64,000 nt of DNA, taken from contig SUXC01000007.1 of NCBI GenBank assembly GCA_015061165.1, positions 1-64,000 on the forward strand. The letters are read 5' to 3'. The stretch's first letter is position 1, and every line of letters starts with the position of its first letter. Positions 43,952 to 46,514 of the stretch are shown piece after piece. The notes beneath the pieces are model-generated. The model did no database searches. It was not told the origin of the DNA and saw only the letters and a list, made by a program, of their open reading frames with translations. This DNA is from Bacteroidales bacterium (lineage in GTDB: Bacteria; Bacteroidota; Bacteroidia; Bacteroidales; Paludibacteraceae). The position numbers and the translations under genes are program-made.

Positions 43952-43982
43952 TTGCATATATCAATAAAAAACACTACCTTTG
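43952..43982 (+). promoter_or_regulatory. Promoter of the candidate structured RNA
   Basis: TTG 43952-43954, 20 bases, TACCTTTG 43975-43982: a full consensus. No open frame of any size begins within the next 300 bases. Confidence 0.8.
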
Positions 43983-43988
43983 CACCCG

Positions 43989-44281
43989 TAATTAGCCCAC
44001 GCCTTGGGATTATGTCTTTCGGGTGGGGTGGTTGCAGACATAATAAGGCGTCATAGGCGCTTTGTGCTTGGCTACATGGAATCTGGTAAATTCAACGTAA
44101 ATCCAACACATTGCAGCATTTTGATGTCCTCGGGATATGTATATCTATCTCCGTACACCTAAAATAGATAGGTGTGCGCGTGCGTACATATCGGCGTGGG
44201 CTTCGGTGTTGCTAGTTCGGATTTACAGGCAATACCAGAGCCTCATGTAGCGGAACAGCAACAGTGCAGTCCCGCTTTTTT
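43989..44281 (+). ncRNA. Candidate structured non-coding RNA, class unknown
   Basis: Transcription from the promoter at 43952-43982 should start near 43989. The sequence then shows an ordered set of pairings: P1 AGCCCACGCC (43994-44003) with GGCGTGGGCT (44193-44202); a hairpin ATTATGTCT/AGACATAAT (44009-44017, 44036-44044); and a hairpin GATATGTA/TACATATC (44134-44141, 44185-44192) with inner ACACCT/AGGTGT. GTAAATCC-AACAC (44097-44109) can pair with GTGTT (44206-44210) and GGATTTAC (44219-44226), which crosses P1 and so forms a pseudoknot. AGGC/GCCT and AGCGG/CCGCT stems follow, the last ahead of six Ts. I found no tmRNA, RNase P or SRP signatures. It could also be a long leader of the gene at 44422. 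Confidence 0.65.
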
Positions 44282-44299
44282 GTATGCCTACTATTATCC

Positions 44300-44366
44300 A
44301 TGAGTAACTTCTCTTTGGACGTACAGGGTATTCTCAGGACCTCAAGGTATGGGGAGAAGTTACTCA
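44300..44366. repeat. Inverted repeat with 14 bp perfect arms
   Basis: ATGAGTAACTTCTC (44300-44313) and GAGAAGTTACTCAT (about 44353-44366) around a ~39-base spacer. The left arm begins a 25-codon open frame (MSNFSLDVQG..., stop TAA near 44377), so a short leader peptide is possible. Confidence 0.7.
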
Positions 44367-44421
44367 TTTATATATAATTTGGACAAATTCACATAACAAT
44401 AATCTTAAAACTAATAAACTT

Positions 44422-44805
44422 ATGGCAAAAAAATCAGCAATTTCGGGTGAATACCTCATCCAAGTAGAAGACAGCGGTAGTGTTGTTGTTTGGAGAATTT
44501 TTGATAATGTAAAAGCATCGCTCCGCGAGATAGCAGCATTAAAAGAGTTTGAATACAATCCTGACTGGACTACGCGACAATTTGGTAGTCATATCTGCAA
44601 AGAGTTTGGTGATGGCAAAACAGCTACTGTAGGTGGTTATGTAATTCAAGTGAGAGAGAATGGCAGTATTGAATCTTATCGCCACTTTGAAAATACCAAA
44701 GCCGCGCTTCGTGAGATCGCTGAAAAAATAGGCTTTGAGTATAGCACAGATTGGACTACACGACAATTCGGAAGCAAACTTGTAGATGCACTTGAGGGTA
44801 AGTGA
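44422..44805 (+). CDS. Protein with two copies of an LREIA/DWTTRQFG domain
   Basis: A 127-residue protein made of two repeats of about 60 residues. Each repeat reads Y-x-IQV-x-(D/E)-x-GS, then F-(D/E)-N-x-KA-x-LREIA, then FEY-x-x-DWTTRQFGS (first about 9-70, second about 72-125). The same module appears once at the N-terminus of the protein at 45510. The fold would be a small alpha/beta domain ending in a helical DWTTRQFG segment; a nucleic-acid or protein-binding role is possible, but no function is known to me. It follows the candidate RNA and the 14 bp inverted repeat. Confidence 0.75.
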   Translation: MAKKSAISGEYLIQVEDSGSVVVWRIFDNVKASLREIAALKEFEYNPDWTTRQFGSHICKEFGDGKTATVGGYVIQVRENGSIESYRHFENTKAALREIAEKIGFEYSTDWTTRQFGSKLVDALEGK

Positions 44806-44878: not shown

Positions 44879-45430
44879 ATGAACTACACAGAACTACAAT
44901 GGAAACAATGCCATATAACCGATGTGATTGATAATAGAATATCACCACATACTGGATCTATTATATATCGGTGGTGGTTTCACGAAGATTCAGAAATAAT
45001 GAATGTACTTCGTGAACATGCTGGCGATGTTCAATTTGAAAAGATCAAAAGGAAATTCCCAGAAGATAACGCAGTTGCAAGTGGCACTTATTATGCTCTC
45101 TATTTGGGTAAAGGAGTTAATGGCAGAAGACGCCTGAAAAATCATTTAAGTCCACGCAAACGCACATCCACGCTGCGCAGAACAATTGGTGCATTGCTGA
45201 ATATGAATGATGAAAAAGAAATAACCGATGCACTATCAACCTGCTATTACGAATGGTGTGAACTGGATTGTAACAAAAAGGAATTAGAAACAATAGAAAA
45301 AGGTCTAATTAAAGACGGATACTTCCCTCTCAACCTCAAAGACAATCCGAATATTGGCGATTGCTGGAAAGAGGTCATTCAGAAAAAACGCAAAGCATTG
45401 ATGTGCCATAGAGAGCTTCAATGGATATAG
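44879..45430 (+). CDS. GIY-YIG-like nuclease-domain protein
   Basis: A 183-residue protein. The central part reads like a divergent GIY-YIG nuclease: YYALYLGKGVNGRRRLKNHL (about 76-95, with the Tyr...Tyr-x-Gly-Lys strand and an Arg in the following helix), STLRRTIGALL (about 102-112), then an acidic late helix (ELETIEKGLIKDGYFPLN) that could supply the metal-binding Glu. The ATG at 44879 is preferred; the in-frame ATG at 44786 lies inside the upstream gene. The first 12 residues (MNYTELQWKQCH) and the upstream DNA resemble those of the gene at 46633. Moderately sure of the fold; the target is unknown. Confidence 0.65.
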   Translation: MNYTELQWKQCHITDVIDNRISPHTGSIIYRWWFHEDSEIMNVLREHAGDVQFEKIKRKFPEDNAVASGTYYALYLGKGVNGRRRLKNHLSPRKRTSTLRRTIGALLNMNDEKEITDALSTCYYEWCELDCNKKELETIEKGLIKDGYFPLNLKDNPNIGDCWKEVIQKKRKALMCHRELQWI

Positions 45431-45509
45431 TTATTCTAAGACAAATAATAAAAGGAGAAAGCCGAAAATCCGAGAAAGAGTAGGCGACTTATTTAATAAA
45501 TCTAACATT

Positions 45510-46514
45510 ATGATTAAGAAAGATGTAACTTATGGCGATTGGAGAATTGTTCGCCATGATGACTCCAAAATGGAGGTGTACAAAAACGGAGAGTTGTGCC
45601 CAAAATCTGCTCCTGCATTGCGTGAGATTGCAGAAGAAGTAGGATTAGAAGTTAATCCAGATTGGCGTACATCACAATTGGGAAGGAATGTAATTAAGGC
45701 TGTTGAGGCAAAACTTAACAACCAGAACAGTAATACTAACAAAGTGAAACTGTCTTTAAATCCACAAACCGCAATTCGCCTTTCATTGTTCCCTATTGTA
45801 GGAGAAGAATCAATTCGAATGGTTGAAGATAATTGTTTTGATATAGATCTTTTATATGACCTCGAGAGTTTATATATTGAGAACACAGAAAGAATGTATG
45901 ACATTATCGTTGACTTTTATGTATCGAATCACGGAGTTGAAATTTGCATTGATGACGAAGATTCTGAAGAATTGGAGGAGAATGCTCTCGTTGTTGACTA
46001 TGGTATGGCTGATGAAGCTGATGCAGACGAACCAAGTGAGGATTTTGCTCTAGTAGATACAATGAAACTAGCTGGGGAGCAAAGTGGCATTAGCAAAGAG
46101 ATTTTCCAAGACATTATCGATCGTCATAACGAAGGCGAGGAAGATGATCATGTACATATTATCGTTGATGCTATTCGCCGCCGAATGAAACAAGTAGCAG
46201 AGCAATTGGTAAATGACGGATTAGCAGACGACGCTGACTCTGTGCAGTTTGCATTACAATACGGTCATATTTACGATTATGTATATTCTTGTGAAATAGA
46301 AGCTGATGAATTTGACATTGAAAAGTTGCGTCCTATCGACTGTTGCGACTGGAACGATAGTAATGTTTCGGAAGTATTACAAGAGCAATGGCCAGACCGA
46401 TTGCTGAACAGTATAGTATATGATGGCAAATTCTATGAAGTTGAATGTGAACAGATTGATACCTTTGAGTTCAATGTTGACTTAGTTGATAGCGATTTGC
46501 ACAGTCTGTTGTAA
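45510..46514 (+). CDS. Acidic protein with N-terminal LREIA domain, unknown function
   Basis: A 334-residue protein. Residues 1-65 carry one copy of the module found twice in the protein at 44422 (YKNGELCPKSAPALREIAEEVG … DWRTSQLGRNV). The rest (about 75-334) is very acidic, with DDEDSEELEEN near 150 and repeated Asp/Glu runs. A helical section (about 195-245) and a cysteine pair (DCCDW near 285) precede a DRLLNSIVYDGKFYEVECEQ stretch. No family recognised. A perfect terminator follows 14 bases after the stop, so this ends a transcript that may begin at the RNA promoter. Confidence 0.7.
   Translation: MIKKDVTYGDWRIVRHDDSKMEVYKNGELCPKSAPALREIAEEVGLEVNPDWRTSQLGRNVIKAVEAKLNNQNSNTNKVKLSLNPQTAIRLSLFPIVGEESIRMVEDNCFDIDLLYDLESLYIENTERMYDIIVDFYVSNHGVEICIDDEDSEELEENALVVDYGMADEADADEPSEDFALVDTMKLAGEQSGISKEIFQDIIDRHNEGEEDDHVHIIVDAIRRRMKQVAEQLVNDGLADDADSVQFALQYGHIYDYVYSCEIEADEFDIEKLRPIDCCDWNDSNVSEVLQEQWPDRLLNSIVYDGKFYEVECEQIDTFEFNVDLVDSDLHSLL

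Follow-up and report, generated by a model that had tools for sequence, protein, structure and literature searches.

The window analysed here, a stretch of 64,000 nucleotides, carries a structured leader RNA on the + strand at positions 43984-44281, delimited by its predicted start and the T-run of its terminator and recognised by covariance model, copy number and folding energy. All features below are on the + strand unless noted. A Bacteroidota-type promoter (43952-43982) precedes the RNA, with TTGC at 43952 (-33) and TACCTTTG at 43975-43982 (-7), and an intrinsic terminator, GCGGAAC...GTCCCGC followed by TTTTTT, ends it at 44250-44281. Behind the terminator lie a second hairpin (44300-44367) and a gene for a protein of 127 aa (44422-44805) that has no Pfam or NCBIfam match; the second gene after the RNA (44879-45427) encodes a GIY-YIG nuclease-like protein (PF20815).

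A sequence-only reading of this DNA had described a promoter and about 290 gene-free bases with ordered pairings, ending in a short stem and six Ts, and a check of the sequence recovered each of these elements, the terminator included, in the same place. The MFE of the window region was -115.9 kcal/mol versus -84.9 ± 4.8 kcal/mol in 200 dinucleotide shuffles (z = -6.5), in agreement with the earlier judgement that so many pairings were unlikely by chance. The covariance model matched 44058-44256 with 181 bits (E 2.4e-52), the window copy itself being part of the model. Among 139 copies, a motif scan found TAnnTTTG within 200 nt upstream of the RNA in 128.

The closing stem P1 joins 43994-44003 to 44193-44202, and its 3' strand lies within a near-invariant GGCGTGGGCTTC block. 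Hairpin H1 (44009-44044) has 9 bp, formed by ATTATGTCT (44009-44017) and AGACATAAT (44036-44044); it is a variable domain, and some copies have other sequence in its place. Hairpin H4 and the extended arm span 44108-44192 (H4, 44108-44127; arm base, 44134-44141/44185-44192), with the arm differing strongly in length and sequence among copies. The 9-bp stem of H1 and the 8-bp stem at the base of the arm are the two internal hairpins of the earlier description.

Long-range helices and the terminator overlap

In the window copy, three nested, long-range helices comprise up to 23 bp. Helix b pairs 44071-44078 with b' (44244-44251), helix c pairs 44082-44088 with c' (44233-44239), and helix a pairs 44097-44104 with a' (44219-44226); the 3' strands together occupy 44219-44251, and the sequences of a and b are hypervariable. 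We examined these helices in three alignments: A1, with 15 copies from several genomes, which was the source of the covariance model (R1), A2, with 78 sequences, and A3, whose 82 sequences were retrieved independently, through an exact conserved motif in place of a structural search. Helices b, c and a were paired in 100% of cells in A1, 99-100% in A2 and 98-99% in A3. Covariation was 0.651 for the whole model in A1 (0.220 when shuffled), 0.715 in A2 (0.198) and 0.652 in A3 (0.208); relatedness inflates such scores, and A2 and A3 were aligned to the model, yet slid-partner controls, which keep the relatedness, collapse to 24-43% of cells paired (28-43% on A1). Double-sided changes in the three helices number in the hundreds. 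Helix b was paired in 98-100% of cells, with double changes at all 8 pairs in A2 and A3; helix c was paired in 99-100% and alternates between GGT/ACC, CGC/GCG and AGC/GCT; helix a was paired in 98-100% over its 4 modelled pairs, with double changes in all 4. G-U pairs were tolerated in the helices on the + strand (A2, A3).

P1 was present where the sequence-only reading had placed it. In other copies it is weaker and its register shifts, the shift having been read by eye in some distant copies. Across 151 copies, the RNA's own 5' region paired with the 3' strand of P1 at -17.5 kcal/mol versus -13.4 kcal/mol for shuffles. The bases flanking the P1 anchor paired in 75-84% of cases versus about 40% at random (30 copies), and swapping partners changed little. 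Few compensatory changes occur in P1 because its sequence is nearly invariant. P1 crosses the b-c-a helix, and therefore the pseudoknot stands. Covariation, on which the earlier proposal of a pseudoknotted RNA had been made to depend, was overwhelming in A1, A2 and A3. That proposal had an 8+5 bp helix crossing the closing stem. Its 8 bp (44097-44104/44219-44226) are helix a, which forms the tip of a longer coaxial helix; b and c, further down that helix, were missing from the proposal. Its additional 5 bp (44105-44109/44206-44210) are not a conserved pairing, and their 3' stretch belongs mostly to a further helix, d.

Helix d pairs GTTGCTAGTTC at 44208-44218 (family consensus GTTGCTCGTTC) with 44253-44262, at the start of the terminator. 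In both the genus set and the order set, its own partner beat all 2000 permutations (0/2000 as good); the test was uninformative, as expected, on a set selected for an invariant 5' strand of d. The terminator and the alternative helix that competes with it are both conserved, and the two have at least 3 nt in common in 99% of 150 copies. Besides the 3' strand of d, b' too overlaps the terminator's 5' arm, with which it has its last bases in common. With helix d and terminator overlapping in this way, the RNA is built like a terminator/antiterminator switch. A partial helix d could nonetheless pair with bases of the terminator loop without opening the lower stem, which makes the exclusivity of the two structures a thermodynamic prediction.

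Copies of the RNA and their hypervariable helices

A first DNA search of the same genome returned about ten partly similar places. On reading, these proved to be paralogous RNAs with a promoter before and a terminator behind each of them. The covariance model made 22 matches in this 2.47 Mb genome, the lowest-ranked with E = 0.9, which puts the number of copies at about 20. Of 61 genomes sampled from the genus, 57 have the RNA by this model, with up to 25 matches per genome, as do 51 of 81 genomes of the family sample and 44 of 295 genomes (29 of 183 genera) sampled from the order Bacteroidales; among 247 genomes of a phylum sample, the model matched only the genome under study and one other. 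A pattern scan of named genomes gave at least 119 stretches with the RNA. Among the matches listed, titles were almost all Bacteroidales (Bacteroides, Parabacteroides, Phocaeicola, Prevotella, Paraprevotella, Alistipes, Hallella and Xylanibacter), and the few other labels, by record title alone, were a Clostridiales MAG and a Pseudoflavonifractor MAG. Further carriers of the RNA are a viral contig, three plasmids and a record labelled as phage. In the genome under study, some copies or fragments coincide with contig ends or lie close to them (G000:C10:5, G000:C16:61369 and G000:C1:1-25), as expected if repeats break assembly, so more copies may exist. One copy, at G000:C31:32094-32180 (L006/L013), is truncated: the promoter and the first ~90 nt are followed by unrelated sequence.

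Comparison of closely similar copies revealed an unusual pattern, in which helices are wholly changed while the rest of the RNA is near-identical, and which is directly testable. Two copies that share a genome, C23:95850 and C12:36759, have changes at 11 of 23 a/b sites versus 8 of 207 of the remaining core positions (Fisher p = 4e-8). The window copy and the C19 copy, which precede unrelated DNA, differ at 12 of 22 a/b sites versus 9 of 163 other core sites, and two copies from different genomes (L055/L046) at 8 of 22 versus 2 of 145. The a/b pairing is preserved in each of these divergent pairs. The pair L049/L048 is a counter-example, with 0 of 21 a/b sites different versus 21 of 142 others. 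Recombination that swaps nested helix modules is one possible cause of the hypervariability, and selection for distinctness is another. We also considered the hypervariable segments as guides to their own flanking DNA and rejected this idea; they matched their own flanks no better than those of other loci. Altogether, 35 pairs of RNAs that are at least 86% identical are followed by unrelated DNA, the similarity dropping to background within 5-10 nt of the terminator's end. The RNAs have therefore spread, or been homogenised, independently of the genes.

The hairpin at 44300-44367 appears related to a divergent subfamily of the RNA. Its loop is an exact repeat of 21 nt, TTCTCAGGACCTCAAGGTATG, from the c'-b' strand that a divergent family member has at C32:82006-82026, and an RNA of this type and a copy of the hairpin type occur together likewise in several related genomes. 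The divergent subfamily is represented at G000:C32:~82000-82300 (L016/L286, - strand) and by L274-L281, and has fixed b and c sequences (CATACCTTG, CCTGAGAA); its b' could itself serve as the 5' arm of the terminator. After these RNAs come a conserved AAAAGAACCAACAAGAACCAA stretch and another promoter-like sequence. One locus, L283 (G074:C26:~2254), is a chimera of a canonical 5' part joined at GGAATCT to a divergent-subfamily 3' end, which suggests that second hairpins may descend from tandem RNAs by deletion. We did not retain the hairpin as a clear trans regulator, as its copies seem, in the light of this chimera, to be in part at least what is left of a second, divergent RNA; the conserved second hairpin leaves a slim chance of a role in trans. 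It seems doubtful that helices a and b are address labels, selected to differ within a genome and thereby to match each leader only with itself or with a single partner RNA, the 44300-44367 hairpin being such a partner by strand exchange.

Downstream genes and a candidate attenuation mechanism

The first downstream open reading frame is on the same strand as the RNA at 78 of 86 loci and, in a second set, at 71 of 76, or about 92%. The motif TAnnTTTG occurs between terminator and start codon in 8 of 139 copies versus 4.25 expected from shuffled spacers, which is about chance level. The typical arrangement is accordingly a close, co-oriented gene with no detectable promoter of its own. The downstream proteins are diverse and include BspA-type LRR proteins, BACON lipoproteins, outer-membrane barrels, CsgG-like proteins, kinases, sigma-factor-like proteins, an UpxY antiterminator and DndC. 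A common downstream family or defence system was sought and discarded, since none dominates; LRR_5, the commonest Pfam family, accounts for 8 of 113. The set has the look of a regulon made up of accessory and surface genes, not of a metabolic pathway.

Individual loci add to this picture of the neighbourhoods. The RNA stands directly before a gene for an UpxY-family antiterminator in Hallella mizrahii (L158), before an EF-Tu-like gene on a viral contig from IMG/VR (L260), and before a DndC-like gene at L217. At L146, L180, L182, L188 and L209 (also L099 and L111), it is followed by a small MIHIGQLIERTLREQGRTVTWFARQLCCTRPNVYKIF-type protein that appears helix-turn-helix-like by eye, in Parabacteroides, Paraprevotella and Rikenellaceae hosts; the one copy tested, that of L182, had no Pfam or NCBIfam match.

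On balance, and with modest confidence, we consider the RNA to be a large cis-acting leader that controls the downstream operon by transcription attenuation. Transcription would begin at the Bacteroidota promoter, and the nascent RNA would fold into a knot, with the long b-c-a helix crossing P1. The 5' strand of d, immediately downstream of P1, could then capture the 5' arm of the terminator. With the knot and helix d formed, the terminator could not close and RNA polymerase would run into the gene; with either absent or remodelled, the terminator would close and only the ~290-nt RNA would be made. The signal would be a ligand, protein or RNA bound by the conserved unpaired core. Both the regulation of the switch and the direction in which it works are inferred. 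Several features count against attenuation, among them the scarcity of compensatory changes in P1 and the possible coexistence of part of helix d with a closed lower terminator stem. At nearly 300 nt, the RNA is also longer than attenuation requires; a regulon whose genes are unrelated and share no pathway gives no pointer to a ligand; and in the subfamily of the C32:~82005 type, what looks by eye like a separate promoter lies between RNA and gene.

In a different reading, possible if rather unlikely, the RNA is a stand-alone ~290 nt ncRNA that acts in trans or has a structural or protein-binding role, the genes being expressed by read-through or from promoters missed by the scan. Such an RNA would fit a self-contained unit from promoter to terminator, a terminator whose loop bases are part of the conserved fold through helix d, near-identical RNAs before unrelated genes, and the promoter-like sequence after the divergent C32 subfamily. 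It would not lead us to expect about 92% co-orientation with a close downstream gene or spacers devoid of promoter motifs. Orientation also weighs on the idea, which we regard as improbable, of a selfish or dispersing RNA element that is copied by DNA recombination or through an RNA intermediate, with the transcript as its unit, and lands before genes: strict orientation towards genes needs selection. This idea draws on the 35 pairs of at least 86% identity with unrelated downstream sequence, on the window and C19 copies with their 9 of 163 core differences and unrelated downstream DNA, and on the truncated copy at C31:32094 (first ~90 nt) and one chimeric copy. Gene conversion between existing copies would look alike, however, and a search of the flanks gave no usable orthologous empty site; neither a target-site duplication nor an encoded enzyme was shown. 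Inverted repeats and shuffled neighbours would be compatible with a DNA-level structure, a recombination or protein site that is not an RNA at all, yet a promoter before it and an intrinsic terminator after it on the same strand, together with the G-U pairs tolerated in the + strand helices, make this very improbable.

Interpreted as an attenuating leader, the RNA would be among the most widespread regulatory leaders in gut Bacteroidales and would control surface proteins, sigma factors, the UpxY antiterminator and phosphorothioation or defence-related genes.

Comparison with known RNA classes

The sequence-only reading could name no class for this RNA, and the Rfam match that would have spoken against novelty did not emerge. 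That the RNA is a multicopy family, that it leads into co-oriented genes and that the terminator belongs to its fold lay beyond the reach of that reading. In Rfam 15, no family reached its gathering score for the region or for 20 related loci, and the region had no match above chance at E <= 10; the families not encountered include 6S, RNase P, tmRNA, group I/II introns, riboswitches and Bacteroidales-1. ARAGORN found no tRNA or tmRNA in the window. A structured RNA this large and complex, of which a genome of gut Bacteroidales can carry as many as 25 copies, thus appears to be absent from Rfam. The RNA appears new as a class and, as a kind, an attenuation leader. It resembles transcription-attenuating riboswitches and leaders in its 5' leader position, complex conserved fold, several copies per genome, co-oriented genes and a terminator that competes with an alternative helix; it is unlike them in its size of about 290 nt, double pseudoknot, unrelated downstream genes, hypervariable but complementary helices and lack of an Rfam match.

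Among large RNAs, OLE, GOLLD and ROOL are ornate bacterial ncRNAs whose biochemical role is unknown. The leader RNA is likewise large and structured, but is multicopy, tied to downstream genes and without an Rfam match. It falls in the size class of 6S RNA, which is a long bubbled hairpin, whereas the leader RNA is a multicopy pseudoknot with no Rfam match. FopS and GibS are paralogous sRNAs of Bacteroides; FopS RNAs act in trans and are 65-70 nt long, with a single-stranded 5' seed part and one hairpin, that of the terminator (PMC11697453). Both these sRNAs and the leader RNA are multicopy in Bacteroidaceae and have a terminator, but the latter is ~290 nt long, pseudoknotted and located in leaders. 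We therefore rejected membership in the FopS family, from whose description the leader RNA differs in length and structure (PMC11697453). The FopS literature and Bacteroides transcriptome maps held no recognisable published description of the leader RNA. The main text of a human-microbiome motif survey (PMC8040213) likewise contains no recognisable match, and its supplementary lists may hold an unnamed entry.

The only Rfam family matched near the locus was DUF805b, at 45452-45486 of the window (42.9 bits); 23 nt separate it from the gene at 45510. DUF805b RNA (RF02914) and the leader RNA are both found in Bacteroidota before genes, and DUF805b is cis-regulatory; it is a 35-nt hairpin and a separate module. 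It also occurs between the leader terminator and the gene in L048, L080 and L083, with L046 just below the cut-off. In the spacers of distant copies, such as L093, L096, L101, L102, L103, L108 and L209, the start codon is repeatedly preceded by a short hairpin whose loop resembles GGGGAGUC; it lies after the terminator and may be a DUF805-like or protein-binding element.
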